The notes below the pieces were generated by a model, which ran no database searches, was not told where the DNA came from, and saw only the letters and a program-made list of their open reading frames with translations. The translations under genes were made by a program, and so were the position numbers. DNA of 64,000 nucleotides, from positions 24,601 through 88,600 of the forward strand of contig NW_006920869.1 in NCBI RefSeq assembly GCF_000417875.1, given 5' to 3'. This DNA comes from Pseudozyma flocculosa PF-1 (taxonomy: Eukaryota; Basidiomycota; Ustilaginomycetes; Ustilaginales; Ustilaginaceae). Positions 21,067-52,255 of this stretch are shown in pieces; position 1 is the stretch's first letter; every line of letters starts with the position of its first letter.

Positions 21067-21067
<1 letters not shown>

Positions 21068-32796: not shown

Positions 32797-32997
32797 ATGG
32801 TCAAGTTCGTCGCCGCCGCAGCAGCTTTGGTCGCCGTCGTCCTGGCCGTGTCGGCCTCGGCGGCCCCAGTCCAGCCGCTCGTCTTCCACTGGACGAATGG
32901 GAAACCTACCAAGTTCACCGATCCTACCAAGCCGCCTCCGAGGAGTTACTTCGGACCCAAAGATCGTTACCCTCCTCGCGTTCTCACTGACAAGTAG
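32797..32997 (+). CDS. Small secreted protein 1 (SSP1)
   Basis: A 66-residue single-exon protein. The first ~23 residues (MVKFVAAAAALVAVVLAV...) are a textbook signal peptide with an Ala-rich cleavage region, nearly the same as in SSP2 to SSP5. The mature part is about 43 residues, rich in Pro, Lys and aromatic residues, with PTKFTDPTKPPPR resembling the TKFSPHP segment of SSP5. It has no cysteine and, unlike its relatives, no dibasic KR or RR site. The function is unknown. The call rests on the shared N-terminus and position next to the other members. An in-frame upstream ATG would bury the signal peptide, so this Met is preferred. Confidence 0.7.
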   Translation: MVKFVAAAAALVAVVLAVSASAAPVQPLVFHWTNGKPTKFTDPTKPPPRSYFGPKDRYPPRVLTDK

Positions 32998-33870
32998 AGT
33001 GACAAGTAGAGGAGACGTTGGGGGTCATCATCTAACATGGCCTATTGCTCTTCGCCTAAGGTACCCTCTTTCCTACGCCCATCATCGGATCAAGCTGGTC
33101 TCGGAAGATGATCTCGAGCGTAGCATAAGGGGCCTCGTCCTTAACCCACATCGTATCAAGTCCCCGAACGTGGGCGACTAGGCTAGCCTGTCAGCCGTGC
33201 CTTTCTTTACGCCCACCTCTCCCCAGAAGCGCTCATTTGATCCCCTTCCATCTCCTCGCCGCCACGGACGTTGCCTTTCCTTGCACGATGTTTCGCGCGA
33301 CGTCTACCACTCTCGTTCTATCTCTGCGCTGCCCCTGGACTGGTTCCGAAAGTGTCTTTCCGAAACGCAGATCTTCTCCTCGACCCCTTTTGTGTGCCGG
33401 TACGAGAACGTCTGACCCAATCGCTGCCCGAATGCGAGTGCGGGAGGCGACATGGTCACAAGCCGATTGCATCACGCCCGTTGCGGACAAATGTGGGGCG
33501 CCTGCAGACGTTAGCGTGAGGTGGGTTCTCCTTGCCGGAACCGCATCCGAGATGCTCGAAGAAGACCCCCCACATCCCGACAGAGCAGAGTGGAAACAAC
33601 GGCACATTGGCCGCGCTATCGACCGTCGCCGATGCACAGCCAGAGCCCTGCTTTGTACGACGGGGACATCGATGCCGTACAAAGGTGCGTCTGCCTGTCG
33701 ACGCGACGCTATACGATAAGAGGATCGTTTGCCGCGTTTCGGCCCCCCTCTGTCCGGCAGACCCAACGCCCTCGCTCCCAGCTCAACAAGCCAAATCACA
33801 GCCGCATCTGCCCCGCGGATGACAAACTTCAAGCCGCCCGCTCCCATCGCAAGCTCGAACGCTCACGGAC
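32998..33870. other. Intergenic region before SSP2
   Basis: No supported gene. A 29-base segment (33666-33694) closely matches one upstream of SSP3, indicating a duplicated promoter or leader. Confidence 0.6.
33666..33694 (+). repeat. Duplicated upstream segment, copy 1 (SSP2)
   Basis: Starts acatcgatgccgtacaaagg and matches the segment at 34697-34724 with few substitutions and one length change. It lies 177-205 bp before the SSP2 start codon. Confidence 0.75.
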
Positions 33871-34095
33871 ATGGTCAAGATCCTTACCGCCGCTGGTCTC
33901 GTGGTCGTCGCGCTGGCCATGTCGACCGCCGCCGCTGCCCGCGTCAGTCGGCGCCACTTCGAAGTCGGAGATGGCGATGACGGCGAACACTTCTTCCAAC
34001 TCGGACAAGCTGGCCAGCTTGTCCCGGTCCAGCCCGATCCGCCCCACTCGGACCGCGATCTCGCTCGCCGCGGCGACGGTGAGGGAGACTGCTAG
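33871..34095 (+). CDS. Small secreted protein 2 (SSP2)
   Basis: A 74-residue single-exon protein. The N-terminus MVKILTAAGLVVVALAMS matches the signal peptides of SSP4 and SSP5 almost residue for residue. The mature part is acidic, with dibasic sites at SRR (residues 28-29) and ARR near 66-67, so Kex2-type cleavage could free a peptide of about 38 residues beginning HFEVGDGDDGEH. A single cysteine is the last residue. The GDGDDGE run resembles the acidic parts of the DLPxG peptides in SSP3 and SSP4. The function is unknown; it could be a secreted signalling, antimicrobial or effector peptide precursor. Confidence 0.7.
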   Translation: MVKILTAAGLVVVALAMSTAAAARVSRRHFEVGDGDDGEHFFQLGQAGQLVPVQPDPPHSDRDLARRGDGEGDC

Positions 34096-34696
34096 CTGCC
34101 TGCGGGCGGTTCGATATGGACGGGCGGCCGCGTTCCGCACACGAAGCGTGACGCTTACAAAGGTCCGCGCCGCAAGGTGAGGACCAGGGCGACCAGCCTG
34201 CCGGACATCGCGTTGCGTTCTCAACCATTGTCCTTTGCCGTTTGGATCCGGTAGCGCCTTCGTGGTTCCCAGGCCTTTTCCTTCTGTCCCCTTTTGTGAG
34301 CCGGTGTACCCCTTTGGGTCTGTCTTTTGGGGCACACGGCGCAGCATTCCTTCGATGCGACTTAAGCATCTCGTTGCAACCTGTTCGTCTGAATGAGGAT
34401 CTGCTCACGCCTCGATCCCTAACGCCCCCGCCCCTCTTGTCGGGATTGTACGCCTGCCCTGACCATAGCATCTCGGAATGCTTCGGAGCTCTCGGCGTCT
34501 CCCTGCAGCTTTCAACTCCATAAACATCGGACGCCGCGAGTAACTTGGGCCTCAGAGGCGAAGGCGGACAAAAGTGAGGGCTGAACCTCGCCAATTGAAA
34601 GACGCCTGCCCCCACCGGCGACAGAGCGAACGGCCTCGCTGGCCATCCGGCGCCGATGGCTCTCCACATACAGCCACCACTATCCCCAGCCGAGGC

Positions 34697-34724
34697 ACAT
34701 CGATGTCGTACAAGGTACATCTGC
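34697..34724 (+). repeat. Duplicated upstream segment, copy 2 (SSP3)
   Basis: Starts acatcgatgtcgtacaaggt and is the counterpart of 33666-33694. It lies about 225-255 bp before the SSP3 start codon. Confidence 0.75.
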
Positions 34725-34810
34725 AGGCAGCCGTGACGTGATAAACGCAGCGTTCCTGCATCTCACCGTCCCCTCGTCGTCCAGTTCCAGCGCTCTCCGC
34801 ACGACCACCC

Positions 34811-34870
34811 CACCGCATCGCACCGCATCGCACCGCATCGCACCGCATCGCACCGCATCGCACCGCACCG
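34811..34870. repeat. Decamer tandem repeat (CACCGCATCG)5
   Basis: Five exact copies of CACCGCATCG and one partial copy, ending about 80 bp before the SSP3 start codon, probably in its leader or core promoter. Confidence 0.95.
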
Positions 34871-34949
34871 CACCACAGCCCACTCACTGCAGCATAGCGC
34901 ACACCCTTCAGCAAGACGCAGTTCCACGCCAACCGCACGCCCGCACGCC

Positions 34950-35276
34950 ATGGTCAGGCTCCTAAGCATTGTGTCCCTCGTCGCCGTCGTGCTGGCCACG
35001 TCGGCCGTCGCTTCGCCACGCGATGGTCAGGGCGGTCGCCCTATCGCTCCCCTGCACCACAGACGCGACCTGCCTCAAAGCGGCGACTGGGATGGCTACG
35101 CCGCTCCTCTGCCCCACAAGCGCGACAAAATTCGCGGCGGCAACTACCGCCCTAGCGCCGGTCCCTTGCACGAAAAGCGCGACCTGCCCCAAGGCAGCGA
35201 CTATGATCATGGTGTCGCTCCTCTGCGTCAAAAGCGCGAGGCCGGCCAGCTTCCCAGCCCGGTGCTTTACAAGTGA
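34950..35276 (+). CDS. Small secreted protein 3 (SSP3), Kex2-type repeat precursor
   Basis: A 108-residue single-exon protein. Signal peptide MVRLLSIVSLVAVVLATSAVAS is followed by units ending in a dibasic site: a short leader to HHRR, then DLPQSGDWDGYAAPLPHKR, DKIRGGNYRPSAGPLHEKR, DLPQGSDYDHGVAPLRQKR and a tail starting EAGQ. The units share a DLPQ/G start, an acidic or aromatic middle and an (A/G)PL near the end. This layout, signal peptide plus imperfect repeats bounded by KR, is typical of fungal precursors cut by Kex2 in the Golgi. It has no cysteines. The EA after the last KR resembles the Glu-Ala spacer trimmed by dipeptidyl peptidase in yeast pheromone precursors. The biological activity of the peptides is unknown. 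Confidence 0.8.
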   Translation: MVRLLSIVSLVAVVLATSAVASPRDGQGGRPIAPLHHRRDLPQSGDWDGYAAPLPHKRDKIRGGNYRPSAGPLHEKRDLPQGSDYDHGVAPLRQKREAGQLPSPVLYK

Positions 35277-36187
35277 GAGAGGCGAAGACGTGATAGTCGC
35301 GGTCCCCTCGCGTGGTTTACATCCGGCCTTGAAACACTTCGGAGGAGACAAGCCCTTCGGGAGTGGCTATCCAGTCGGAATCACCGCTTTGGCCCTCGGG
35401 ACGCGATCGCGCCTCCACGAGGGCACCGATGCTCCACCTTCCTCCAAATATGTTCTAGATTGTCGCATCCCCTGCGAGCCTTCGTTCCCGAATTGACCGC
35501 GTTGCCCTAACATCGAGAAGGCTTTCCACAAGGCTGTGGTAGCGCTTCCGCACTGCTTTGACATCGAGCGTCAGCTGACGAGCCTATCAGCGGGGCCGAG
35601 CCGCACCACATTGCAAGGACGGCAGCTGTTCGCCTGCTCGATGCCGGCCATGCCGGTCGGAAGACAGAGGGCCGAATGGAACGCTGCTGACGACCTGCTC
35701 GCTCTGTGAGTCCTATGGGCGCAGTAGTTTCTGCAGATCAGGCACAGTCCTCGGCAATCCTACCGGAGCGGCCGTGTTTTAAGCTCCAGCGCACGCAAGT
35801 GATGGCCGGATCCAGAAGGACTCTCGCTATCTCGTTGACAGCCTCGAGTGCCCTCAACTACAACGGGTCGCTCGATCCCTGCCAACGCCCCACTTCCGAG
35901 AAAAAAGAGGTGGGCGTTCGTTACGCAGTTCACCGTTTCCCACTCGCGCAATCGCACACGCCATGAGATATCGGAAGTGGCGGCAAGACCGCCATCATAA
36001 GACCATGCAAAAGCTTCAGCAGTCGACGAGGGGGCAGGAGCGAAGGCATAAAAGGAGCGCGTCACTACCATACAGCCCCTCCTCCTCTGCCACACCAAGC
36101 TCGACTCCTATAACTCAACTTGCAACTCGTCGCACGAACCGCTCCCCTCTCCAACGAAAGAACAGGACACGCCTCTCTTTCTCAACG
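35277..36187. other. Intergenic region before SSP4
   Basis: No supported gene. A good ATAAAAGG box (36048-36055) precedes SSP4 by about 140 bp. Confidence 0.6.
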
Positions 36188-36736
36188 ATGGTCAAGGCTT
36201 TCGGCATTGCTGGCGTCGTCGCCATCGCGCTGGCCATGTCGGCCGCTGCTGCTCCTATCAGCCGGCTCGACGGCAGCGACATCGGACTCGTGAAGCGCGA
36301 CTTGCCTCACGGCGGCAACGATGACGAGATCCCTGACCCCGACTATCCGCCTAGGAAGCGCGACTTCGGCGACCCCCATGTCGTTGCTGTTGGAGGAAGC
36401 CGCCCGCCGCTGCACAATGACAAGCGCGACTTCGGCGACCCCCATGTCGTTGCTGTTGGAGGAAGCCGCCCGCCGCTTCACAATGACAAGCGCGACTTCG
36501 GAGATCCCCATGTCGTTGCTGTTGGAAGAAGCCGCCCGCCGCTTCACAATGACAAGCGCAGCAACGATGGCCACGACGTTATCGTTGGAGGTCGCCCCCC
36601 GCTGCAGAACGACAAGCGAACGATCGACGGCGGCGAGCCCCCCATCTCCCCTGCACCCGGTAGTGGTGTTGTGCACGTGAAGCCCGTTTCGCCGGGCGAC
36701 CAGCACATTGCGAACCCCGGTCAGCACAACCGCTAG
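36188..36736 (+). CDS. Small secreted protein 4 (SSP4), perfect-repeat Kex2-type precursor
   Basis: A 182-residue single-exon protein. Signal peptide MVKAFGIAGVVAIALAMSAAAA matches SSP2 and SSP5. It is followed by a leader to KR, a peptide beginning DLPHGGNDDE and ending RKR, and three nearly identical 22-residue units starting DFGDPHVVAVGGSRPPLHND and ending KR. Then comes a shorter related unit (SNDGHDVIVGGRPPLQNDKR) and a Pro-rich tail. The third full unit has Arg for Gly in VAVGRS. Kex2 cleavage would release several copies of one ~20-residue peptide. It has no cysteines and no transmembrane segments. The repeats also show at DNA level, so duplication is recent. The DLPHGG peptide links it to SSP3. 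The function is unknown. Confidence 0.85.
   Translation: MVKAFGIAGVVAIALAMSAAAAPISRLDGSDIGLVKRDLPHGGNDDEIPDPDYPPRKRDFGDPHVVAVGGSRPPLHNDKRDFGDPHVVAVGGSRPPLHNDKRDFGDPHVVAVGRSRPPLHNDKRSNDGHDVIVGGRPPLQNDKRTIDGGEPPISPAPGSGVVHVKPVSPGDQHIANPGQHNR
36362..36619 (+). repeat. In-frame 66-bp tandem repeat within SSP4
   Basis: Three 66-bp copies (36362-36427, 36428-36493, 36494-36559) and a diverged 60-bp fourth copy (36560-36619). Each encodes one dibasic-bounded peptide. The first two copies differ by a few synonymous changes only. Confidence 0.95.
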
Positions 36737-37219
36737 GACGCTGCAGGCTTCGACACCCCTCTTCCCGGCCCACACCCAGCCCGCACCTCGTCGAGCGCGG
36801 TGACGGTCTCGCCGCGACCTTGCTCGAGTCCTTGTTCGATGTCTCACGGGAATGATGGCGTGTCGACTCAAACTGCCGCTCCAGTGCCGGAGACGTCGCT
36901 TCTTGGCGCGTCTGCTCTGTCAACGCCCTTTTTAGCTCGCATTCTGTCTCGTGTTCGCCTGTTCGCGTCCGATAGTTGTCCGACTTTCATGATCCAAACG
37001 TTCTTACGACCTCTAGATTCGCGCGGGTGTTGTTCGTACAGAAGCGACGCGCGAGTGACACGACATGCTTTGCCCAGTGCAGGGAAAGGTGAGGGCGCAA
37101 GAAGAAGGAAGGGGACGAATCGACGAACAGCCCCGTCCTCGGGCCGAGGCACGGCGCGACGACGTCTGGGCCGAAAGATGGTCGCAAGCCCGTCACGCCG
37201 ACTCACGTCGAAGTGTGAG
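36737..37219. other. Convergent intergenic region between SSP4 and secreted protein A
   Basis: Should hold both 3' ends. No supported gene. Confidence 0.6.
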
Positions 37220-38266
37220 CTAGTCGAGCAGCAGCTGTGCAGGCAAGGAGAAGTCGCCGACATAGACTATCTCTCTGCGTGCACCGTCATGCGGCTTGGC
37301 CACGGCCCTGAAGACACGAAAGGGAAACGATGGCGGCGCCTGAATGTACGGCGTTTGCCGGTACTTGGGGTGGAAGCTGATAGTGTACCTTGCGCCGTTG
37401 GGCCAACCTAGCGCCGGTCCTGACCACTCGATGTCCTTGAGCAGGCGAGACTTCGAAAGGTCCGAGACCGGAAGCGTGTACCAGTCGTAGAGGCGTCGCT
37501 GGATCGCCCGAGTGTCTGCAGGTCTGACTGCTGCTTGAGACAGCACATACTCGTCGAGACTGTGGGGCGACACGCCCGCGTACCTTCGGAGCCGGTCGAG
37601 GAGCTCGACCTTGATGGCTTCGAACATGGCCTCGTTCCCGTACCTGTAGGTGAGACGGGATCTCCTCGTCTTGATCGCAGGTGCTGCGAGTCTGGCCCCT
37701 TGTCGAGTAGGCATGAAATCCGGGGACCGCCGGGGAGGCGACGAAGAGAGATCGGGGCTCGAGTCTTGGACGTCGGTGGACGACAAGTCTTCGCCTGCAT
37801 TCGAGGCAGATGGGCCGCTATGGCCGGCATCGACGGCTGCAACTGGATACTCGTCCTCTGCGAAGAACTGCTCCAAGAGACGGTCGAATTCATCGTCATC
37901 CAAGTATTGCTCGGCGTGTGTAGGCTTTTGCGACGGAGCTCCGCCCGAGCTCAAGGCGGCATGGTAGCTATCAGGTCGATAGTCGTGGTCCGCACGGAGC
38001 GACTCGACGCCATGGTCAAGAGCCGGACGTGGAAGACGCTGCGAGGGTGCAGTTTCCTGCAGAGGTGCAGCGGCCGACGTCAGATGCAAGTTGTCGGAAT
38101 GGAAGGATGCTGCGCCCTGGGCGGACCCATGGAAACTTGCAGCTTCCAGGCTTTGGACGACCCCTCGTGCCACTCCGCCAATCGGTGGAAGACCGGCTGC
38201 GCTTTGGAAATAGAGTAGGCAGTGGAGAAGCGGCCAGAGTACAATCAAGGGTCGATGCGGTCGCAT
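37220..38266 (-). CDS. Secreted protein A (family shared with B and C)
   Basis: Single exon, 348 residues. The first ~25 residues (MRPHRPLIVLWPLLHCLLYF...) form a signal peptide. A long Ser/Ala-rich disordered part contains an acidic DDDEFDRLLEQFFAED stretch. The last ~140 residues form a domain also found in secreted proteins B and C: an N-terminal YGNxAMFEAIKVELLDRL helix, a middle LLKDIEW segment, then SFH, FRVFRAVAKP and VYVGDF. I recognise no known domain, catalytic motif or disulfide pattern. A TATATAT box (38410-38416, minus strand) lies about 145 bp upstream. The gene is convergent with SSP4. It may be a secreted effector or host-interaction protein; this is an inference from the signal peptide and paralogy only. 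Confidence 0.75.
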   Translation of the reverse strand: MRPHRPLIVLWPLLHCLLYFQSAAGLPPIGGVARGVVQSLEAASFHGSAQGAASFHSDNLHLTSAAAPLQETAPSQRLPRPALDHGVESLRADHDYRPDSYHAALSSGGAPSQKPTHAEQYLDDDEFDRLLEQFFAEDEYPVAAVDAGHSGPSASNAGEDLSSTDVQDSSPDLSSSPPRRSPDFMPTRQGARLAAPAIKTRRSRLTYRYGNEAMFEAIKVELLDRLRRYAGVSPHSLDEYVLSQAAVRPADTRAIQRRLYDWYTLPVSDLSKSRLLKDIEWSGPALGWPNGARYTISFHPKYRQTPYIQAPPSFPFRVFRAVAKPHDGARREIVYVGDFSLPAQLLLD

Positions 38267-38991
38267 GTTCGGGATATGACGCTTGGACTTGCTACGATGA
38301 CCAGAGGGGTCGAGGTGGATGGAAGGGATTCAGCCGAGCAGGGAGAGGGTCAAGGAAAGGTCGGTTTTGGAACGGGAGTGAATGGTCAATCAAGACCCCA
38401 ATCGAAGCAATATATACGGCTGGCTCGGGAAGGGCAAGTGCATGAGGCGTCCAGCGCGAAAGCCCACAAAGTCCGGGCAGGACGGCCGGGTGCAGCTGGA
38501 CCAGGACATGTTCTCTCAGCGGGCGGATGCTCGCCTCGTCCTTCGCTCGGCCCAAGTCACGGACCCTCTTCCGTCCTGGCCGTCTCGTCCGTCGAAGACC
38601 TCCGATGGTCGCCTCGCTGTATGTGGCTGGTGTTGCCTCGAACGGGGTCACGCCCCGAAGCCAACGCAGTCAATATAGCCCGGATGCGGGCTCATGACGG
38701 CATGAGGGTGGGCGCTTCGGAGATGAGTACGTCGGGGCGTCTATACCTGAAGCCACCAACACCGACACCGTCCGCAGGAAGCTTGCCCGTACGAGCACAC
38801 TCGAATGGTTCAGAACCCGAAGCAGCCGGGGGAGGCCGTGCGCTGACAAGCTCGCCAGGCATCAGACAGCACCGTCTACACAGTCCTGCGTCCTCTGCGG
38901 TGAAAATCCGAGCTCTAGATTGCCCCAAGTGCGGACGTGGAAGAAGGATACATCTGGGAGAACGCTCTACGACGGCGGCCAGCCATGTAGC
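38267..38991. other. Region between secreted protein A and P450 gene
   Basis: Contains the promoter of secreted protein A and the 3' flank of the P450 gene. No supported gene. Confidence 0.6.
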
Positions 38992-40764
38992 TCAGGCGCT
39001 GGCAGCGACGGGCTCCCTCGGCTTGAGGCCGATCCTGAAGCGGGGCTTGGCGAGCTGGAAGGTGACAAACTGGCGGAAGTCGACGTCCTTCTCGACGGCG
39101 TACACGTGGTAGCGGCTGAGCAGGGTGTGGAGAACCATCTTCATCTCGTGCCAGGCGAACTTCCAGCCGATGCAGTTGCGCGGGCCGGTGCCAAAGGGCA
39201 TGAAGGCGGCCATGTCGGCCGGAGGGGCGCCCTCGGTGTTGCCGTCGAGGAAGCGCTCGGGCCAGAACTTGTGCGGCTGCGGCCAGTACGAGGGCGAGTA
39301 GTGGAGCGCGCGGAGCGAGGCAGAGATGGCGGTTCGCGGCGGGATGACGTGGCCCAGGACCACGGTCGACTCGCGCGCGGTGCGGCGGCCGAGCTCGTTG
39401 GTCACCGGGTACATGCGCATGCCCTCGTTGATGCAGGCGTCGAGGTAGGGCGTGTCCCTCAGCTCCTCGAAGCCGGCCACGGTCGAGTCGAGCGGCGCCG
39501 AGGGGATCGTCTCGTAGAGCTTTTCCAGCTTGTCCGGGTTCTCGAGGAGAGCCTTGAGGATGTAGGTGATGGTGTTGCTCGTCGTCTCGCCGCCGGCGAT
39601 GAGGAGCTCGACGCATTGGTCCTTGACCTGGATCTCGGTCAGCTTGTCCTTCTGCCCCTTTTGCACCTCGACGCTCGCGTTGACCAGGAACTGGAGGATG
39701 TCCTTGCGCTCCTCGGAGCCGTCGGCGTCTTTCTCCTGCGCCGCCCGCTTCTCGGCGAACCGCTCCTCGACCAGCGGGTTGGTCAGCTTGTACACGTTGA
39801 GGTCGCGCTTCATGTACTTGTCAAAGGGCCTGCAAAAGAAGCGCACGCCGCCGTCGTGGAGGTACTTGGCCAGCAGGCGGTTGATCTCGACAAAGCGTCG
39901 ATCGGCCTTTGGGTCGTCGAGGCAGGCGACCAGGTTGAACGACGTGCCGAAGGCCGTCTCGCCGAGGATGTCCTGCCATGGCGGCAGCAGCAGGAGCAGA
40001 AAGAGCGGAACGGGTCAGTCAGTGAGGCCCAACGACATGGAGAGATTGAACGAGGGGCAGCCGCGCTCGTCTCACCATGGCGAGGCAGGCGAGATCCTCG
40101 TAGACGTTGATCTGAAGCTCGCGGCCCTCCTTGGCCGCCTTCTCGGTCCTCGTCTGGTACGCTTCGAAGAGCTTGGTGGTGGCGTTGTGAAGGAACGGCT
40201 CGAGGTTCTTGAGGTACTCGACGGCAAACGCGGGGCTCATGAGCCTCCTCCGCTGGCGGTGGTATTCCTTGTTGGTGGTGGTGAACATGCCGGCCGTCTT
40301 GGGGTCGCGCGACAGGGCGGCGTACCAGTTGACCTTGGGCTGGTTCTCCTTGGCCAGCAACTGCTTGATGGCCTCCTTGTCCGAGACGTAGATCTGCCTG
40401 CTGCCCAGGCGGAAGATGGGTCCGTAGACGGTGTGCAGGTGGTCGACGTACTTCCACTGCTCTCCGCGGATGTAGTAGTACAGCGCCGGCAGCATCGTCC
40501 AGTGCAGCAGCGACGGACCTGGGATCGACGACGTGACGTGAAAGTACTTGGATTTGATGCCCTGCGGAAGAGGGGGAGCGGACGAGATGCGGAAGCGGTC
40601 AGACGAGGCTTTCCGCCATCGAGCGCACGGCTCCCGCGGTCGGTGCTCACAAGGATGACCGCGTAGGCGATGCAGGAGAGGAAGGCATTGAACAGCAGCG
40701 TCCTTGCGCTCCACGACGAGGTCGACAGGGCGACCTCGCCGGTGTAGAGGGTCGTTCCGTTCAT
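38992..40764 (-). CDS. cyp2: Cytochrome P450, likely Cyp2-like fatty acid hydroxylase
   Basis: Three exons on the minus strand, 40764-40651, 40561-40076 and 39972-38992, give 526 residues. A membrane anchor lies at about residues 20-38. The I-helix reads AGGETT, the K-helix ExxR is EGMR, and the heme-binding loop is [10 protein letters not shown] with Cys467 as iron ligand. It is an ER-bound, NADPH-P450-reductase-dependent monooxygenase resembling fungal CYP4-type fatty acid hydroxylases. In the ustilagic acid cluster Cyp1 and Cyp2 hydroxylate the terminal and subterminal carbons of palmitate. I assign this one to Cyp2 because the other P450 has the motifs typical of terminal hydroxylases; that assignment is tentative. 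The gene is divergent from the second P450. A TATATAG box is at 40861-40867 on the minus strand. Confidence 0.88.
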
Positions 40765-42496
40765 CTTTCGGACGTGGATAGGAACGATGAAGGGGTGTGG
40801 GAGAAGAGGTTGGGCTTGGGCGGTCTTCTGACCCGTCGTCGATTGGAGGAGCTCGAGCTGCTATATACGGATCGCTGTCGGCGCCGGGCAATGCAGAGGC
40901 AGGGACGCGAAGATGGATCAGGGACCTCTGATCCTGGCCGCGATAGCGCACGGACACAATCTGCCCACGTTGAGCTCCTTGACAGGTCGACGAGGTGCCT
41001 GACCGCCGTCCGACTACGACTTTGTGCGGGGCATACCTTTCTATCTGGCTGCATCGCATCCTCGCCGGTCGGCTGGCTGGTCACAGGTATCGCGCCATAA
41101 CCGGCTCCGACCAGCCTCCCATATCGCAGGCGGCGTCGAGCTCGAGAGGAGCGGGGACCGACATCTGCATGGCTCAAAGGCAAGAAGCTCGAGGCGCGCC
41201 TCGCCGTCTTTTCGAAATTTGCCTTCGCGATTCTGGTTTTCAATTTTTTTATTTTTATTTTTGCTGCGGGCGGGGGCGGGCCCGCGATATGCGGTATGCG
41301 GACGCGTCGGCCGCTGGATGCTCTCTCGCCGGATCCGCACTCGCCACCACCGCACTCGCTGCGACCACCCAAGCTGCAGCATCGAGCACGATGAAGCTAC
41401 AGCGAGGCTCGACAGACTTCAGACCTACTCAATCCCGTTGGCCCCGAGGTGTTTGCGGCGCGCCCGCAGATGACGGCATGCTGCCCGCCCGCAGGCTCCA
41501 CCCATCTCGGCTGGTGCGTCGCCACGCGCCGTGCGAATCGCCCCGCTTCACGGTCGGTCGGCCGCGCGGTGAGCCACGGAGAGTGAATGGGAGACCATGC
41601 AGCCTACTGAACGTTCCTTGAGGTGCTTGGAGTGAGAATGCGACATGCCCACCTCATGCTCCGAGGGTCTACCTCGTCAGGCAGAGAGAGGGGTGGCAGC
41701 AAAGCGCCGTCATGGTCGACCAGTGTGAAAGCCCCGGGCGTCTGCGCTCTCGCTTTTGCTTCGATTACCGCCTTCACCGCCGGCACCGAGGTATTACAGG
41801 AGAGGGAAGAAAGTGAATGACGCCAGGAGATGCTCGAACCGTACCCTTGGGCCGGGCGCCTTTGGAAGCCGAAGCGTGCGGATAAGGGATGCAGCGCCGC
41901 CACGCCCATCGAGAGGAAGGTTTTCCGTGACCGGACAGTCACAGCGGCGCCGAAACGGTCTGCGCAGGCTTGGAGGGCATCGTCGACGGCCGGCAGCGCT
42001 CCGTGGCTGCCTCGTGTTGCCCTCGCTTGTCGCTCCGAGCGGTCTAACGGCTCTGAGACTGCATAGCCAGGTACGCACGGTGATAGACTGGCTCTCGAGG
42101 AGGTTTGAAGCCCGGCTAACTGGCCTCAGGTCGCCGTCATCCGCGCGATGTGCCTCGGCGCCCTTGAGCAGTCTCGCAACCCAAGGCTGCGAATTCAGAG
42201 GGAGGCCTTCCAGCAGCAGCTGGTGGGGCCCTGCGTGAGAGAGCAGGGTCGGTCGCCCTGCAGCACGGCGCACCTTCCCCAGCCTCTACGGCGGGTCTGA
42301 AGACCTTAAATATAGCCAAGCAAGCCAACACCGGTGCCCACAGCTCCCCTCCCCATCCAGCTGCAGCCCAATCGCGCCCCGACTTTGCACCTGGCCCCGC
42401 TCTCTTATCCAACCAAGGAAGACCACATTCGTTCATCGATCATACCCACCGACGACTGGCATTGACCTCCCCGTTACGCGCCTTCTGCTTGCAAAT
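40765..42496. other. Divergent promoter region between the two P450 genes
   Basis: Holds TATA-like boxes for both P450 genes: TATATAG on the minus strand at 40861-40867 and TAAATATAG on the plus strand at 42307-42315. The nearest match to the Rua1 element is a one-mismatch site on the minus strand at 41292-41302 (TCCGCATACCG). No supported gene. Confidence 0.65.
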
Positions 42497-44406
42497 ATGG
42501 CCCGCAATCCGGCCCTCGCCTCGCCGAGCTCCATGGTGGGGCAGGCGGGCGGCCTGCTCGCCTCGAACCTCTTCAACATGTCGGCCGACCTGTCGTACTC
42601 GTACAGCAACTTTAGCGGACACGGCCAGGGCGTCCAGTACGGCTCGATCAAGGCGTCGGCGGCCGCGCCATCGGCTGGCATCGCAGCGACCCAGTCCCGG
42701 TCGATGCTGCTCCTGTCGCTCTTCCTCTGCGGCATCGCCATGCTCATGATCCGCTACCCGGACTGCGCCATCGGCTGCGAGCGCCGGACGGACCTCAAGG
42801 GACCGCGAGGGCTGCCGCTGCTCGGCAACCTCTTCTGGGCGCTCAAGAACCGAGACCCACTCGGCTACCAGGTGTACGCGCAGAAGAAGTACGGCTACGG
42901 CAACACGCACACGCTGCCCGGACTGGGCCGGCTGATCGACATCTCGCGACCGGACTGGATTGAGCACGTGCAAAAGACGCAGTTCAGCGACTACGTCAAG
43001 GGCCCCTCGTTCCACGACCAGATGAAGGACGTGCTCGGCGACGGCATCTTTACCTCGGACGGCGAGCGGTGGAAGATGCAGCGCAAGGTGGCCAGCCGCA
43101 TCTTTAGCGTCTCGTCGTTCAAGCACATAATCACGCGCACCATCCGCGAGGACTGCGCGCTCCTCGAAAAGATTCTCTACGACCACGCCGACAAGGGCGA
43201 CACGTTCAACATGCAGGAGCTCTTTTTCCGCTTCACCCTCAGCTCGTTTGTCAAGATCGCCTTTAGCCAGGACACGGGCTCGCTCTCCAAGCCCGACCAG
43301 CCCGACGAGTTCGGCGAGGCGTTCAACTATGCCCAAAAGGTCCTCGACATGCGCTTCGTCCAGCCGTGGTGGAAGCTCAGCGAAAAGTACAACGAGACCG
43401 GCCGGAAGATGCGCGAGTGCCGCAAGATTATCGACAACGTGAGTGCCGGCTGGTGCTGGCCGGGCCGAGTGCCCACATGTGTCCTCGCGCCTTCTCACCG
43501 CTTCTTGACTGCCTCTTCCTTCCTCACTCACTGCAGTTCACCGATGAGATTGTCGAGAACCGCCGCAGCCAGGCCGCAGCCAAGGCCGCCGGTCGTCTGC
43601 CCGCGTCCGACGGCGGCGAAAACGACGGCCGCAAGGACCTGCTCGACCTGTTCATGGCGCACCGCATGTCGGATGGCAGCGGACTGAGCAACAAGCAGCT
43701 CAAGGACACCATCCTCAACCTCCTCATCGCCGGGCGCGACACGACGGCCGAGGCGCTGTCGTGGATGACGTGGCACATCCTCACCAAGCCGTCGCTCTAC
43801 CGCACCATCCAGGACGAGATCGACACGCTGAGCGACGGCGGCGCCACCAACCACGAGATCGACTACGACGGCTTCGATCGGCTGCACCTCCAGAAGCTCT
43901 CTGCGTTCTACGAGACGCTGCGTCTCCACCCGAGCATACCCAAGAACATCCGACGCGCCGTCAACGACGACGTCCTCCCCAACGGCGGTCCGCGCATCCG
44001 CAAGGGCGACATCGTCCTCTACTCGGACTGGGCCATGGCGAGGAACCCGGACATCTGGGGCAAGGACGCGTGCGAGTTCCGTCCGGACCGCTGGATCGAC
44101 TCCGAGTCCAACGGCGACCACGCGGGCGAGGCGACCGAGTCGATCCGCAAGGTGAGCCAATTCAAGGCCCACTTTTTCAACGGCGGCCCGCGCCTCTGCC
44201 TCGGCCAGAAGCTGGCCACGTTCGAGGTGACGCAGGTCATCAACTCGATCTTTGGCAAGTTTGACCTCGAGCTCGTCGACCTGGGCGGCAAGAAGTCGAC
44301 CGGCAGGGACAAGGTGCCCGAGTACCTCAACTCGCTCACGCACCCCATGAAGCGGCCGCTCATGGTCCGCGTCAAGCGTCGTGGTGCCTCTGCGCCGACC
44401 GCATAG
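42497..44406 (+). CDS. cyp1: Cytochrome P450, likely Cyp1-like terminal fatty acid hydroxylase
   Basis: Two exons, 42497-43438 and 43537-44406, encode 603 residues, long for a P450. An unusual ~68-residue Ser/Ala-rich leader precedes the membrane anchor (about residues 70-86). The I-helix is AGRDTT near 379, the ExxR is ETLR, and the heme loop is [12 protein letters not shown] with Cys535. AGRDTT and GPRLCLGQ are typical of the CYP52/86/94/704 group of fatty acid omega-hydroxylases. That fits terminal hydroxylation of the long acyl chain, the job of Cyp1 in ustilagic acid synthesis. A downstream start closer to the anchor is possible, but the chosen ATG follows the TATA box by about 180 bp and the leader stays open throughout. 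Confidence 0.9.
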
Positions 44407-45214
44407 CATCCGGGGCTCGCCTCGCTGCGACGCTGGGCATACCGCGTCCAGCGTCTCGATCTCGCTATGCTCCCTCTTTCGTCCTCTCGTCCAGTCCCCG
44501 TCCTCGCATCTCTCCAGCCTCGCCCCGGTTCCTTCCTTTCATACAATCTGCCGCGGCGCACACTGTCCAGCTACTTTCTCTACTAACACTCTCGGCAATG
44601 GAAAACTTCGTCTTATCGATTCCGCCCAGACGCACGTATGCCGACGCCGGCGGCCGGCAGGCAGGTCTCGTCTCGGTGGCGAGCCGAGCCCAAACTTTCA
44701 TATCGCCCGCTCTGCGATGTCTTCTGCCCTTGACTGCTGCGACAGGAAGTGAGGGCGGTGATCGCATAGCGCTATCCGCCGAAATGGGCTTCGTTCAGAC
44801 GACATGCAGGAGCGCCTGGCAATTCGACCGCGTTGGGACGCCTTTCCGCCGTCAGGGTAGCCTGCCAGCCTGGAATCGAGTCGAGTGCAGTCGTTGTAGC
44901 CCGGTGCTGCCCCCGACTTTCTCTCAGCTGCATGCGTTCATTTGCAGCAGAGAGCAGCGATATACTCGACCCCTGTCCGGGCATAAATGCAATCTCGCGC
45001 AGAGCCAATCCGCCCCTCGTCTCCAGCCAGCAGGCTAACCGACGAAAAAGGCCTCCGGCTCCCATGCTCGGTGTCGTCGCGATCGTGATCGTGGAGTCAT
45101 TAACAGAGCATCGTGTCGCCGGGGAGCATGCCGGGGAGCATGCATGTATGTACAAGGGTCCGTCGCGGTCCTGCTCCTCGCTTTGGCCTCTGCGCATCTT
45201 GCGGCGCCGGAAGC
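44407..45214. other. Convergent intergenic region
   Basis: Lies between the 3' ends of the P450 gene and the membrane-protein gene. No supported gene or repeat. Confidence 0.6.
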
Positions 45215-46110
45215 TCAGGGCGAGTGGGCATAGTTGAGCGGGTACCTCTCTTCCCACTTTCCGCTACCCCTCATCTCGTCGCGGTCCTTGCCGACGAATG
45301 CGACGCTGAGGAGGAGGAGGACGGCGAGGACCTCTTCAACCCACTCGAAGCCGAGGTTCTGCCACACGGTGAAGCTCTTGAGGAAGTCGCGGTGGGCCGT
45401 CTTGTAGGTGCCGAAGCCGACGCGGACGAGCATGAGGGGCAGGGCGAGGACGACGCGGACGAGGATCTTGCGGTGGTGCGACGACGAGCGCGGGAAGAGG
45501 AAGAGGGTGAAGAGGAAGGCAAAGACGGTGATGACGGCAAAGATGGCGTCGCCGATGGGCGCCTTGGAGTCGAGCTTGCCGTCGGTCGAGGTGCCGTCAA
45601 AGACCGAGTCGCTGTTCGAGTAGCCCATGATGAGCAAGACGAGCGCGGCGATGTTGGCGAGGTGCAGCAGGCGGAGCAGGAAGGGCTTCTTGGACTTGGG
45701 CGGCTGGTCGGCGTTGTAGACTCCGCTGAGGAAGGAGATGACCGACGAGACGAGGAACGAGTAGCCCAGGCCGCGCAGGATGTAGCCCGTGGTGACCATG
45801 TTGGTGTTCTTGTAGTTGTCGTGATAGACGTAGATGAGAATGGCGTTGCCGGCCAGCTTGACTGCGAGGTGCGGAGGGAAAGGAGGACGAGCCCAAGTCA
45901 GATCAGCTGGATGCGTGGAGCAGAGTCGAGCCGGGTACACGGCCGCGAGCACGGGCTGCTCTGCTCACCTCCGGTAAAGAGGACGAGGCTGAAGAAGCCC
46001 GCTGCGCGACTGAAGCCCTGCTTGAAGGCGGCGGCGACTGCGAGGAGGAAGAGGAGGGCGTAGATGGCCACAAAGACCTCGTCGATGGTCACGCTGACCG
46101 GTTGCGACAT
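45215..46110 (-). CDS. Seven-helix membrane protein, DUF7702-like
   Basis: Two exons on the minus strand, 46110-45969 and 45861-45215, encode 262 residues. Hydrophobicity by eye gives about seven membrane spans, the first at residues 10-30 (FVAIYALLFLLAVAAAF). The N-terminus is short and the C-terminus ends in a charged segment. The pattern, including GYILRGLGYSFL and a short loop of Lys/Pro before LLRLLHLANIAALVLLI, resembles the fungal seven-helix DUF7702 family of unknown function. No transport or enzyme motif is visible. It may correspond to an 'orf' of unknown role in the described clusters; this is a guess. A TATAAGG box (46262-46268, minus strand) lies about 155 bp upstream. Confidence 0.8.
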
Positions 46111-47770
46111 GGTAGCTGGCTGAGCTGTGATGGTCTGGACGCGGGATGGGCAGAAGGAGGATGACAGGTGGGGGTAATATGGGCTGGTCGCTCGAGTAGT
46201 GTTCGTGAAGAGGGGAAGCGGACGAGTCCCCTCTGCCGTCTGTGGCGAGACCGACAGCGAGCCTTATAGGGGGCGAGGCTGACCAGGCGTGACGCTCCCA
46301 GGCGGCGGTGTCTAGCCGTACGCTGGGCCCCCGCGACAGCTTGCCGCGACACGGTCCGCTGCGTAGGAGCTGCCGCCGGCGTCGGAGCTGATCCGGCGTT
46401 TCTAGAAGCCAGGGAGGGGCGGGCAGTCGGGGCACACGAGCAGCGAGGCAGGCGAGAGACCCTTTGTCCCGTCGTTGCTGCCTTGCTTGTCTGCCTGCCT
46501 TTGCAAGCTAGCCGTCGCAGCTGGACCCGCGGGCGGTGCAGGCCAGACGAGGTCCAGCGCGCGGCGTGTTGGCTTGGCTGCCCTGCCGCCGACGCTGGAC
46601 TGGCTCTACCTCTGCCTCTACGACGCTACTCGCCGGGAAGCTGCCGACACAGGGGGGTGGTGTCACGCCTATCCGCACCGCCTCTCCGTCTGCTGCCGCG
46701 AGCTAATCCGTCGGACATCGATATCGGGTGTCCAGGCTTCAGTGTGAGGGGTCAGAGAAAGGCGCGGCACACAGCCCCGTCTGCGAGCGCGCGTGCGGTG
46801 TCGGTCCGAGCCGAAATGAGACCGAGCATGAGCTCAACGTACTTGGCGCGGTCGCATATACCGCTCGATGACGGCGGCCAAAGCAAGGTCGCGCCGAGGC
46901 AGGCAGCAGGGCAGCTGGCGAGCGAGGCAGGCAGGCAGGCTAGGCAAGGGCTGCGTGCATAGGCCTTATTCTCCGATGCACCTAGCTTGCTGGCTTGACA
47001 GCGAGCGTCGCATTGATGCCCGTGCGCCTCGGAAGATCCGACATGGTGCGCTGCTCTGTCCGCGGCTCGACGCCGGCGAAGCAAAGGAGGGGTACGGTCG
47101 CCTGGAGATGGCGGAAGAGGCCGGCCACCAGCGCCAGCGAACTTTTGCCTGAGGGGCAGTGCAAGGCGTATCGTCGTCCGACGGCTTTGAAGCGCTGCGA
47201 TACGGGTCGGGGCAAAGCAAGCAGGGGTCGGCGTAGCGGTGACGGCGAACGGTCAAATGCGAAAGAGAGGTGAAGAGAGAGCGGGATGCGCATACCGGGA
47301 ACAAGAGGCAGGGGGGCAGGGCAGGGCCAGGCCAGCGCCGCCCGCCGGCAGCCTTCCGCCGGCAGGCTCCACCACGAACGGGCCCCTCGGAACTCGGGAC
47401 ATTGGGGGGCCACCCTTTGGCTGGCCAGGCAGGCAGGACCCTGGCTGGCCACCGCCCGCTTGGCTCTCTCTCTTGGGCGGGCCGGCATGCGGCGTCGAGG
47501 GTCGCTGGCTGGCTGGGCATGCCGCCTCTCCCTCTTCCCGCCTTGGGACCATGCCGCTATGCTCCCTCTCGCCCACAATCGAGCATTCAATTTCACGTCC
47601 ACGTTGCCCGCCATGTCGTACATTCCTACATCAAAGGGTTAAGCCGGCACACGCTCCATAAAGCGCGTCCCGCCCCGTGGCGGGCGTGGCCTCGCCCCCA
47701 TCCCGACCTCCTCCTGACCCCGCTGTCATCGATACCCCTTCAGGCCCCCTCACCGCAGACGTCGAACACC
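46111..47770. other. Divergent promoter region between membrane protein and acyltransferase 2
   Basis: Contains TATAAGG on the minus strand, a CATAAAG box (47657-47663) on the plus strand and one full match to the Rua1 element. Several antisense-looking frames are present, none supported. Confidence 0.65.
47287..47297 (+). promoter_or_regulatory. Candidate Rua1-binding element upstream of acyltransferase 2
   Basis: TGCGCATACCG fits the recalled consensus at every position, 484 bp before the acyltransferase 2 start codon. Confidence 0.55.
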
Positions 47771-49439
47771 ATGACCATCGACGAGCCAGCCACCTCCGTG
47801 CGCATCCTCTCGGTAGAGAGGGTGCTCCCCGCGACCCTCGCCTTCCCCGCACCCTCGGTGCCCGATGCGGTCCCCTTTGACGGCCAGGACCTCGCCATGC
47901 CGAGGATGAACATGCACTGCAGCTGGTTCCTCAATGTCCACGACAAGCCCCACCTGGCAGCTGTCAGCTTCGAGCAGATCGCGCAGCAGGTCCGTACCGG
48001 CCTCGCAAGCTTCATCGCCCAGTTTCCCGCCGCCACAGGCCAGGCCAAGCTGCACCAGGACGACTCGAGGTGGTGGCTGCACTACAACGGACAGGGCGCG
48101 GACCTCCACCTCGCGCAGGTCGATGCTCCCCTTGGCGATACCTGGAAGGGCCTTGGCGCCAAGATGGACGGCGACCTGGCCCCCAGGGGTGTCGTCATCC
48201 ACAACGACGAGGACTCGCTGTTTGCGGTCAAGCTGACCAGGGTGGGTGGCAGCCGCGCACGCGACGCGAACCTCGACGACGGATCTCGACGACATTGGCG
48301 CATCGCTGACCCTTCTCTGCCTGTCCATCGACCCGTGCATCCGCTCTCAGTTTTCTTGCGGCTCCCTGTGCCTCTCGACCAGCACGCATCACTGGCTCGT
48401 CGACTTTGTTGGCTACCTCGACCTGATGGACCTCTTTGGCCGCGCCATTGCCGATCCGAGCGTGCGCCTGCCCGCCAGGAACTGGAGCCGCAACATGCTG
48501 GACCTCGTCAAGGACACGCCGCCCGCCTCGATCCCCGGCGACGAGTGGTTCAAGGAGCGCACCAAGCAGGCGGTCCCGACCCGCCAGCCGGGCCCCTGCC
48601 GCAACCTGCTGCTCCTCTTCACCGCCGACGACCTGGAGCGCCTCAAGCAGGATATGGGCAAGTGGGCTGCTGATGCAGGCGAGGAGTGCGCGCCGCCGCA
48701 CCAGTGGATCTCGACCAACGACGCCCTCCACGCGCTGCTCTGGTCGAGCATCAGCCGCGTGCGCGGCCTGGAGGGCGACTCGAGGCGCACCCGGCTGCAC
48801 ACGCCGCTCGACGGCCGGATCCATGTGCCGCGCTCGCTGGACAAGGATGCGCCGTACGTCGGCAACGTGCACCCGGCCCACGTGATGAGCGCCCGGGCCG
48901 ACGAGGTCGTGGTGCCGCGCAGCAAGCTGTTTGAGCTGGCGTGGAGGGTGCGCAACGAGTACACGGCGCCGCTCGACGCGCCGACGATGAGCGCCATTGT
49001 GCGCGACCACAACTACGCCGCCGAGGGCTCGCCGCCGGGCTTTGGCTCCGGACGGATGCCCAACCAGTCTGCCATGTTTGGCGATGATGTGACGATCAGC
49101 AACGTGGGCAAGATGGACCTGCGCAAGCGGCTCGACTTTGGCCGCGAGCTGGGTGGCAGCCCGAGCAGCATGTGCGTGCTGGGCATCCCTGCGGTGCAGA
49201 TGGGCCCGCTGACGCTGCGTGCGGCCGACGGCACGGCGCTGATCCTGCCGGCGCCCGAGACGTGGACGAGCTACGAGGCGGCGCTGTCGTCGCGGTCGGG
49301 CTCGTACACGGCCGACGAGGTTGCGCGGGGCGAGTGCAAGGGCAAGCCGGGCATGCTGGTGCTGGTCGGCTTGCGGGAGCAGGAAGTCGGCGGATTCCTT
49401 GGCGACGAGCTGGTGAGCCAGTTCTGCCACTGCCTGTAG
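47771..49439 (+). CDS. Acyltransferase 2, HXXXD (BAHD-like) family
   Basis: Two exons, 47771-48241 and 48351-49439, encode 519 residues. The catalytic HXXXD is HHWLVD (His171, Asp175), again 14 residues into exon 2. The second-motif region reads LDFGRELGGSPS. It is paralogous to acyltransferase 1: the intron falls after the same LTR/VTR tripeptide, both have a short Cys-Gly-(S/T) segment before the active site, and lengths are similar. The likely role is CoA-dependent acetylation or acylation of the cellobiose hydroxyls; donor and position cannot be told from sequence. It has no signal peptide, so it should be cytosolic. The Rua1-type element upstream supports co-regulation with the cluster. 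Confidence 0.85.
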
Positions 49440-50521
49440 CGCGCGCGGCGGTGATGTGATGCGTGGACGGCGATCCGAATAAAGCCTAAGCTCAGGCTGG
49501 CCTGGCAGCGGTATGCGAACCACGTGGGCTGCTGGCTTGATGTGACGACGATCCCGAGGGCCGAGCGAGGCCTGGCAGTTGTGTTCCGAGGTCGTTCCAC
49601 GGCGACCAGATGCCAAGACTCGGACTCGGTGAGCGCCGAACCGGAGAGGCAGCGACCGCCGCCCAATCCCCGATGGGACAGGACTCTCCAGGCCAGGCTA
49701 GGGCGCGTCATCGGCCCACGGGAGAAAGAAAAAGTTTCCGAGGCTCGGAAGACGGGGAGATTCGTGTCCCCCCCCATTTTTTTTTTTATTTTTTTCCCCG
49801 CCCGGCCCGGCCCAACCGGTGACTGGTCGGGCCGACTTCTTCCAAAAAAAAATTAGAAAATCGAAATCGCGTGGCCAGAGGGCTGGACCGAGCCCTGGCA
49901 GCAAAGGAGGTTGTGGGTTTGCTGGCTAGCAGGCCGCATTGCTCGTACTCGCTCTCTCTGTCCCCTCCCTCTGGCTCCTTCGTCTTGACCTGGCCTAGAA
50001 AGGATCCATCGTGGTCTTGGTCTTCAAGTCGGATCGGATCTCGGGATGGTCGGGGTTCAGGGTATGCCGTGTTTGAGACCAAATGACGCTGGCGAGTCGC
50101 GCCGTCCCGGTGGTCCAGAGGGAACGAGGGAAGGGGAGAGCAGGGGTCGATCTGTTTGTTGGGGCGCATCCTCGCGGGCTGCAGATTGCTGGTCTGCTGC
50201 CGCACCGCGCCGGTCTCTTTGACGCCGAGCTAAGGTCAGTAGAGATGGATCCAGCCGTCAGACAGGGTCCAGCTTCGAGGCTGCTGCCTGCCCGCTGCCA
50301 CGTTGCTGGGCGCTCGTACATCCCCCTACCGACCCAAGCCCGAGGCAAGGCGGGCTGGGGACTCGGCCATGCTCCGTCCTTGCTTCTTATGTCCGTCCGC
50401 GAGGTCGAGAGGGTGGTGTATAAGAAGAGCACGAGTCGACGACGACGACGACGGTGTCCTCGCTCTGCCCGCCTCTTCGTCCCCTCATCGCCCCCCACCC
50501 TCCTCCTCCCCCGCCTCACAG
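49440..50521. other. Intergenic region before the THEM6-like gene
   Basis: Holds a T-rich run near 49777-49797, an A-rich run near 49844, a minus-strand match to the Rua1 element and a TATAAG box (50419-50424) about 100 bp before the next gene. Confidence 0.65.
49509..49519 (-). promoter_or_regulatory. Candidate Rua1-binding element (minus strand)
   Basis: Reads TTCGCATACCG on the minus strand and fits the recalled consensus. It lies 70 bp past the acyltransferase 2 stop and about 1 kb before the THEM6-like gene, further than the other matches. Confidence 0.3.
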
Positions 50522-51462
50522 ATGTACTGGCTCCTCATCCTCCCACTCAGCCTCGTGCTGGGACTGCACTACAAATCCCTCCCCTTTGCATGGCACATCC
50601 GTCTATTCTGGATCGCCATCAAGGCGCGGTACCGCACCACCCCCCCGCTCTTCCTCGCCCGCACCTCCCCGCGCATCTCGCGGTCAACACCCCACCTCCT
50701 CCTCGATAGCCTTCCGATCGGGGTCGACGTGTTCGACGACCGCGTCGTGGAGCACTTTAAGGTCGGCTTCGACGACGGCGACTTCCTCGGCCACCTCAGC
50801 AACTCGTGCTACCCCAAGAACCTCGACTACGTACGCATGAGCTATGCCATGCAGCGTCTCCCCGTCTTTGCTAGGGATGGAGGATGGACCGCCCTGGCCG
50901 CGATTCAGTTCAAGTTCCTTCGTGAGATCCCCATCGGAAAGCGGTACAGCGTGCGTGTAGGCGTACTCGGCTGGGACGACAAGTGGTTCTGTGAGTGGCC
51001 GACCCGTGCTCCCCTCGCTCCCGCCCGCGCTTCTGCGGCTCGGCATGCTGATCCTCAGCACGTCTACATCCCTCGCCCTGCACAGACGTCCGATCCGAGT
51101 TCTACACGACCTTGCGCTCCAAGAAGATCGACGAGGATCAGGAGACGATCCACTGCGAAGCGACGTCGCGCCACTGCTTCAAGTACCGCCGCCGCACCAT
51201 CCCGCCCTGGCTCGTCTTCGCCACTGCGGGCTACTCGCCCCGCTCCAGCGCCGACCGCCGCGTCAACTGGGAAAAGACCGAGGGCGTCCGCCTTTCGCTC
51301 GCCAAGAGGTCGCGTGGCGGCAAGGTCAACCTGCTCGATGCGTGGTCCAGGAACGTTGGGACGGAGAGGGAGGAGGAGTGGATGAGGAAAGAGTTTTGGG
51401 ACCTCGCGGGTTGGGAGGATCGGAGGAAGGTTGCGACTGACGAGATCACACTGTCGATCTAG
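50522..51462 (+). CDS. THEM6-like (4HBT hot-dog) thioesterase-fold protein
   Basis: Two exons, 50522-50990 and 51086-51462, encode 281 residues. An N-terminal hydrophobic helix (YWLLILPLSLVLGLHY) suggests a membrane anchor or signal-anchor. The core has the segment FDDGDFLGHLSNSCYPKNLDYVRM, matching the catalytic-loop region of THEM6-like hot-dog proteins, followed by a beta-rich half (FKFLREIPIGKRY, VLGWDDKWFY). The family is annotated as acyl-CoA thioesterase-like, though activity is often unproven. Inside a glycolipid cluster it could release or trim an acyl chain before transfer; this is inference. A TATAAG box sits about 100 bp upstream, and the intron join restores Tyr in KWFYVRSEFY. 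Confidence 0.78.
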
Positions 51463-51877
51463 GTGGCGGCCAAAGGGTGCGCTTCTTGGCATCTATCGGA
51501 CAGCCGGCGGATAGAGGAATACTAGATCTGAAATTGCAAGGGATGCGAGGAAGCTATGCTGCGACGACCGGGCTCGAGGAGCCGTCTGGGAAGGACCCGA
51601 ACGGCAGAGCGGGCCAATGCAACAGAGACGGGCGTGGGAGAAGCGGTGCAAACAGACTTGACGAATAAGTTACGGGGGAGCTGGACGGAAACCGTCGCTG
51701 GCCAGGATGAGGGGAGGGGAGCGCTTGTGGCCATCGTAGGGCATGGCGGAGACCTTGGCCTCGCAGCCGATCGGACCCGTCCGCTTCCAGAGCGGGCCGT
51801 TGAAACGGCAGTTCAAAGCTTGTACCGAGCCTCGCTGGTGCATCGTCCCCATCTGACCAGATCAGGCAACGAGGAGC
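51463..51877. other. Convergent intergenic region
   Basis: Lies between the 3' ends of the THEM6-like gene and SSP5. Nothing else seen. Confidence 0.6.
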
Positions 51878-52255
51878 CTACTCATCCTCGCCGCGGAGCG
51901 AGCGGGGCGGAAGGGCAGGAAGTGGGTAACCATCGGAGCTAGGGGGCTGGTCCGAGCTGTGGCCCGAAACCGCGGGTGGGCTAAACTTGCCCGGCGAGCG
52001 GCGGAGGATGTCGCTGGAAGCCACCTCGCTTTCATCGTGGAGGCGGCGTCGCGGGGGAAGCGACGGCGGCGGGATGCCGGGAAACTTGGGGAGGGGCACC
52101 GGCTCCGGGTTGGGGCCCGAGACCGGATGAGGGCTGAACTTGGTCGGCGAGCGACGGACGATGCCGTCGTCGTTACTGCCACCAATGGGCGCAGCCTGGG
52201 CCGACATGGCGAGCGCGACGGCCACCAGGCCAAAGAGGGCAAAGAACTTGACCAT
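51878..52255 (-). CDS. Small secreted protein 5 (SSP5), dibasic-site precursor
   Basis: Single exon, 125 residues, about 15 kb from SSP1-SSP4 yet with the same signal peptide type (MVKFFALFGLVAVALAMSAQAA). The mature part has two related units each following an RR site: RRSPTKFSPHPVSG and RRSPGKFSPPAVSG. Each is followed by a Pro-rich stretch that ends in PPR (SLPPRR and ALPPRS). An RRR lies between them. It has no cysteines. Kex2-type cleavage would give two similar ~35-40-residue Pro-rich peptides. The TKF-Pro core is shared with SSP1. A minus-strand TATAAAG (52386-52392) lies about 130 bp upstream. The function is unknown. Confidence 0.78.
   Translation of the reverse strand: MVKFFALFGLVAVALAMSAQAAPIGGSNDDGIVRRSPTKFSPHPVSGPNPEPVPLPKFPGIPPPSLPPRRRLHDESEVASSDILRRSPGKFSPPAVSGHSSDQPPSSDGYPLPALPPRSLRGEDE

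Follow-up and report, generated by a model that had tools for sequence, protein, structure and literature searches.

Five predicted small secreted precursors with one shared leader in the gaps of the cellobiose-lipid gene cluster of Pseudozyma flocculosa

The 64,000-base stretch of the Pseudozyma flocculosa PF-1 genome analysed here, referred to as the window, covers positions 24601-88600 of contig C1 (1,975,278 bases) and contains five small open reading frames (ORFs), designated small secreted precursors SSP1 to SSP5, whose products begin with one shared leader and continue into divergent payloads, some of them divided by the dibasic pairs Lys-Arg (KR) or Arg-Arg (RR). All five frames were found at the places originally stated (Table 1), with SSP1-4 occupying the gap between an acyltransferase and the first cytochrome P450, and SSP5 lying beyond a thioesterase-like gene. 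The gene content of the window, judged by its Pfam domains, is that of a cellobiose-lipid cluster, in agreement with the glycolipid setting proposed earlier; in P. flocculosa this is the flocculosin cluster, a name taken from passages of the literature. How this biocontrol yeast acts is a matter of debate.

Table 1. Features of the window, with SSP genes and their repeats first, followed by the second family of predicted secreted orphans (SEC) and the neighbouring cluster genes.
Feature	Position in window	Strand	Description
SSP1, 66 aa	32797..32997	+	shared leader; 43-aa payload without KR or RR, net charge +4
SSP2, 74 aa	33871..34095	+	shared leader, two RR sites, repeat-free
SSP3, 108 aa	34950..35276	+	shared leader, four dibasic sites, three 19-residue units
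SSP3 units (three)	35067..35237	+	each with terminal KR; counted from sequence
SSP4, 182 aa	36188..36736	+	shared leader, six KR sites, seven fragments; gives PFL1_00012 once the annotated intron is removed
SSP4 units (three)	36362..36559	+	66 bp (22 aa) each; counted from sequence
Annotated intron of PFL1_00012	36446..36607	+	GTCGTT..CTGCAG, 162 nt, within SSP4 repeats
SSP5, 125 aa	51878..52255	-	shared leader, two units starting SP(T/G)KFSP after RR
SEC-A, 348 aa	37220..38266	-	predicted secreted orphan beside SSP4; no Pfam match
SEC-B, 389 aa	54007..55176	+	predicted secreted orphan near SSP5; no Pfam match
SEC-C, 310 aa	56124..57056	+	beyond SSP5; start inferred inside 55548-57056 frame
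Rua1-type regulator	3037..5241	+	Pfam Rua1_C
Fatty acid synthase exons	8438..22300 (both limits approximate)	-	Pfam
ABC transporter exon	24613..26403	+	Pfam ABC_membrane
Glycosyltransferase exon	28680..29636	+	Pfam UDPGT
Acyltransferase exons	30585..32220	+	directly left of SSP1; Pfam Transferase, exon 2 over cut-off, exon 1 just under
Cytochrome P450	38992..41059	-	Pfam p450
Cytochrome P450	42497..44406	+	Pfam p450
Acyltransferase-like stretch	48348..48914	+	Pfam Transferase, 21 bits, just under 22.7-bit cut-off

The feature uniting the five SSPs is the leader, which begins MVK in all members except SSP3, where it begins MVR, and keeps 7 of 29 alignment columns invariant over the first 28 residues. 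The ten leader pairs score 41-68, with 0-14 shuffles in 1000 attaining the score of a given pair. The comparison set consisted of eight further proteins of this genome that are predicted to be secreted, three of them from the window; the 40 pairings between these and the SSPs reach at most 37, below all ten SSP pairs, and the best of the 28 pairings among the comparison proteins themselves reaches 40 versus 41 for the weakest SSP pair. The likeness is therefore well beyond what signal peptides generally have in common. Across the genome (23,045,585 bases, 23.05 Mb, in 33 contigs), a strict leader pattern occurs at four places, all of them SSPs, with none in a reversed control, SSP2 being the member that does not fit; a loosened pattern gives 44 matches, including all five SSPs, versus 19 in the reversed control. 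Together, these results bear out the near-identical starts and single leader that had been described from the sequence. Among the 39 non-SSP matches to the loosened pattern, two with a hydrophobic start were inspected, one being a short stopped frame and the other a transporter-like protein, and neither is a relative.

Codon usage of the frames was ranked against a background of 195 ORFs of the window that start with ATG and encode 55-200 aa. The number of background ORFs scoring at least as high was 16 for SSP1, 5 for SSP2, 10 for SSP3, 5 for SSP4, and 3 for SSP5, placing SSP2-5 within the top few per cent and SSP1 within the top 8%, with at least two of the three top-scoring background ORFs being real exons. 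Considered together, leader, repeats, and codon score make chance frames very unlikely. Additionally, identical proteins exist in the protein collection for SSP1 (P0004) and SSP2 (P0005), while the family-alignment search gave no catalogued protein for SSP3 among the matches listed.

Internal repeats are evident in SSP3, SSP4, and SSP5, whose self-repeat scores were reached by none of 200 shuffles each. The repeat architecture is as first reported, with three near-identical 22-residue units in SSP4, three imperfect units in SSP3, and two in SSP5. Two of the SSP4 units are identical in protein sequence and the third carries one change, the underlying DNA copies differing at 4 sites, 3 synonymous and 1 nonsynonymous; in SSP3, units 1 and 3 agree at 9 of 17 core positions and the middle unit is weaker. 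Repeats bounded by KR or RR had been proposed for SSP2-SSP5, which holds for SSP3, SSP4, and SSP5; SSP2 has the RR sites with no repeat. Relative to shuffled payloads, the number of KR/RR sites is clearly in excess in SSP4 (P 0.003) and SSP5 (P 0.0065), marginal in SSP3 (P 0.057), and not in excess in SSP2 (P 0.093). The idea of a cleavable payload does not hold for SSP1 or SSP2; both are predicted small secreted proteins that carry the leader but no repeats.

Outside the leader, similarity is undetectable for most SSP pairs. The ten payload pairs include two suggestive ones, SSP2-SSP3 and SSP3-SSP4 (12 and 26 per 1000 shuffles), neither being significant after ten tests; at the DNA level, SSP1-SSP4 and SSP3-SSP4 show similarity above ten shuffles each. 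A PTKF(S/T) likeness between SSP1 and SSP5 noticed by eye is reached by 232 of 1000 shuffles and is unsupported.

Cutting at KR and RR would yield 20 fragments, of which 15 are net negative and one has a cysteine, the +4 payload of SSP1 being the exception. Cationic antimicrobial peptides carry a net positive charge and often cysteine bridges, and the predominantly negative charge of the fragments makes such a classic role unlikely, with SSP1 as a possible exception. The layout had been likened to that of peptide hormones, antimicrobial peptides, or effectors; the antimicrobial option is weakened by charge and the single cysteine, while the leader and the repeats of SSP3-SSP5 stand.

The SSPs were also compared with the criteria for Kex2-processed repeat proteins (KEPs) of Le Marquer et al. 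(PMC6339444), with FIMO replaced by an exact-match P value. At least four predicted fragments of at least two residues occur in SSP3 (5), SSP4 (7), and SSP5 (4), versus one in SSP1 and three in SSP2. At least three similar fragments are present in SSP4 alone (three units, P about 1e-20), where repeats make up 66 of 182 residues against a minimum of 15%; units 1 and 3 of SSP3 are alike at an exact-match P of about 1e-6. From these fragment, similarity, and site counts, the KEP label would fit SSP4, come close to fitting SSP3 and SSP5, and be wrong for SSP1 and SSP2. A candidate processing enzyme is encoded in the genome, where a kexin catalytic exon aligns to yeast kexin 1ot5 with 274 bits (E 7.8e-81).

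SSP4 is already annotated as PFL1_00012, which can be derived from the window by omitting one 162-nt stretch; the annotated protein is shorter because this part of the repeats is treated as an intron with donor GTCGTT, apparently dropping two repeat units. The intron is probably an annotation artefact, as PSFLO_00764, from a P. flocculosa contig of 1,953,273 bases, reads through it. PSFLO_00764 carries four 66-bp units of identical type versus three in the window, a difference that preserves the reading frame and may reflect repeat polymorphism or an assembly effect. Absence from sister strains had been named as a finding that would refute the family, and this second contig does not bear it out: SSP1 and SSP2 are identical on it and SSP4 is longer, while neither SSP3 nor a full-length SSP5 turned up.

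The family alignment, SSP4, and SSP5, each searched against 5.8 billion proteins, returned P. flocculosa only, plus one weak unrelated match (E 0.31), among the matches listed; SSP1, SSP2, and SSP3 entered this comparison inside the family alignment. Because this protein search relies on 5-residue words in common, it could overlook distant relatives. Within the genome itself, protein searches with SSP4, SSP5, SSP3, SSP2, and the consensus leader found no further member, and SSP1 was sought by DNA pattern; the consensus-leader search matched only SSP4 and SSP5, and its reach is therefore short. Weak matches on contigs C4, C2, and C14 (E 0.032, 0.11, and 0.005) were judged chance by eye, being leaderless with stops in or near the frame.

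A second family of predicted secreted orphans, not described in the original prediction, is interleaved with the SSPs in the same cluster gaps; its three members SEC-A, SEC-B, and SEC-C are larger than the SSPs, and none of them matches Pfam. SEC-A and SEC-B have a C-terminal domain in common (35% over 150 residues, E 5e-13), and further copies lie at C22:541215-541820 and C18:605900-606409, with two weak ones at C15:588-591 kb. A sequence search of the SEC proteins against solved structures gave chance matches only. SSP1-5 and the three SEC genes thus bring the flocculosin locus to at least eight predicted secreted orphans in two families. The C22 copy adjoins three more proteins that are small and predicted to be secreted (111, 165, and 229 aa), and this group (L052, 4427-9303) is perhaps a small effector cluster.

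Published passages on the cluster count 11 lipid genes. In the window, Pfam additionally identified a DUF7702 protein and placed the thioesterase-like gene at 50.4-51.4 kb. In the six frames of 32201-42100, P450 was the sole domain matched. To the right of SEC-C, the minus strand of 57001-59098 gives a weak acyltransferase-like PapA_C match (22.8 bits, below the 30-bit cut-off), which suggests a further acyltransferase gene there.

The explanation best fitting these data, to which a probability of roughly 0.55 is assigned as a whole, is that SSP1-5 are lineage-specific, locally duplicated secreted precursors in the gaps of the flocculosin cluster, partly cut by Kex2 to linear peptides. The leader would take each precursor into the endoplasmic reticulum, kexin in the late Golgi would cut after KR or RR, and a Kex1-type carboxypeptidase would trim the basic residues. 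SSP4 would then release a 20-residue peptide in three or four copies, together with related ones, SSP3 17-residue peptides, and SSP5 two long proline-rich peptides, while SSP1 and SSP2 would be exported largely uncut. The predicted peptides are linear, mostly acidic, and rich in glycine, proline, and histidine; they would share the extracellular compartment with exported flocculosin and may act outside the cell on other organisms or on the producer's own surface.

Several results weigh against this explanation. A crude signal-peptide scan based on hydrophobicity and small residues passes 18 other window ORFs along with SSP1-5. In the leader, the ratio of nonsynonymous to synonymous substitution (dN/dS) falls just slightly short of 1 and for SSP3-SSP4 exceeds it, which leaves selection there unproven. 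The self-repeat score of SSP1, which has no KR or RR site, was reached by 113 of 200 shuffles, and that of SSP2 by 83 of 200 despite its two RR sites; SSP5 has just two units, and the middle unit of SSP3, at equal length, does not fall below P 1e-3 by exact match. For the kexin, a search for the P_proprotein domain gave no match, the sequence after the catalytic exon reading N. Finally, the Rua1 motif of Ustilago maydis has no exact site in the window and six with one mismatch, all outside the SSP promoters, and no 7-10-base word in 18 upstream regions was enriched above random maxima; shared regulation of SSPs and lipid genes is accordingly not supported.

A different role for cut repeats, possible yet unlikely, would be that of Rep1-like surface peptides, assembling on the producer's own wall and setting wettability and attachment together with the glycolipid surfactant. 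A surfactant cluster would be a fitting place for such peptides, and Rep1, a repeat protein that a related smut processes by Kex2, affects hyphal wall properties according to passages of PMC6339444 and PMC7329392. Repellents of the Rep1 type are characterised by amphipathic, hydrophobic repeat peptides that form surface amyloid. However, the SSP3 and SSP4 repeat peptides are predicted to be hydrophilic (grand average of hydropathy -0.5 to -1.4) and 17-20 residues long versus 37 residues for the Rep1 peptides in excerpts of PMC6339444. Rep1 and other repeat effectors of U. maydis, for 8 of 15 of which portions of PMC5923269 give repeats separated by Kex2 as demonstrated or predicted, come from a related smut lineage and have such repeats in common with the SSPs, whose units are shorter and more hydrophilic.

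Less probable still is that the SSPs are secreted peptide signals, resembling alpha-pheromone or quorum peptides, that time glycolipid production. Following RR, the SSP5 units open with SP, which is an X-Pro dipeptide of the kind cut by Ste13-type peptidases and noted in basidiomycete KEPs in passages of PMC6339444; conversely, the SSP4 and SSP3 units start with DF, DL, DK, SN, and TI, and the repeat sequences differ between members. An XA or XP pair after each Kex2 site, as expected of alpha-pheromones, is found only in the two SSP5 units and at the SSP3 tail (EA).

It is also improbable, somewhat more so than signalling, that the SSPs are mere passengers, either orphan secreted genes duplicating in a subterminal gene-poor stretch without a lasting role or chance frames. 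The lack of relatives outside P. flocculosa and of a database name for SSP1, SSP2, SSP3, and full-length SSP5, both among the matches listed, is in keeping with such a view, as is the divergence of most payload pairs beyond recognition; the spread of a second secreted family in the same gaps speaks against passengers, and the combined leader, repeat, and codon evidence against chance frames. Cyclic ribosomal peptides of the dikaritin or ustiloxin type are very improbable products here, since the layout of leader and KR-bounded repeats is the same but SSP1-4 have no nearby partner, no UstYa (DUF3328) or tyrosinase being found in the six frames of 32201-42100 or the plus frames of 44401-54100 (minus partly scanned). 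A whole-genome UstYa search gave no match, but its control was silent too.

The lineage-specific precursors favoured above resemble KEPs in having a predicted secretion leader followed by similar units split by KR or RR, SSP4 fitting the applied criteria and SSP3 nearly so; KEPs are already known from most fungi, with several in U. maydis, and those with peptides of unknown role are common according to passages of PMC6339444 and PMC7329392. The SSPs differ in sharing the leader and hardly the payload, in having two repeat-free members, and in their placing in a glycolipid cluster, which goes unmentioned in those passages. Another small orphan in an orthologous glycolipid cluster is orf2 of the U. 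maydis ustilagic acid cluster (348 bp, function unknown), compared here by description only; excerpts of PMC7673458 and PMC8951962 depict it as likewise patchily distributed, with no copy found in S. scitamineum, U. xerochloae, M. ordensis, or M. mackinlayi.

Nothing in the open literature searched describes genes of this kind within a cellobiose-lipid cluster; the search was made without the primary papers (Teichmann 2010, 2011a, 2011b, Lefebvre 2013), which may mention some of the frames. If peptides and lipid are produced together, no earlier glycolipid cluster with a ribosomal peptide arm would be known, as far as this search shows. Five leader-sharing precursors and three secreted orphans among lipid genes would change the reading of the locus. 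A tentative and rather doubtful extension is that the locus serves as a double weapon or double coat, combining the glycolipid with rapidly diversifying Kex2-released peptides, and with the second secreted family, for joint extracellular use, and that changes in repeat number quickly adjust the peptide dose.

Any link between the SSPs and antagonism of other fungi is speculative. According to passages of PMC10210494, mildew control does not require flocculosin itself, and its genes are strongly expressed in culture and weakly on mildew in those of PMC6079639. In Coprinopsis, linear KEP peptides have been detected and six KEP knockouts had no apparent phenotype, according to portions of PMC9769878; these knockouts and the weak expression on mildew call for caution about any strong role. 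The SSP and SEC genes would provide named, removable targets for testing.

Upstream of the frames, a TATA-like box lies at nearly equal distances from SSP4 (-140) and SSP5 (-137), which counts in favour of the precursor family. Some 80-140 bases ahead of the start of SSP3, at 34810-34870, lies a short tandem run of an approximately 10-base CACCGCATCG-like unit.

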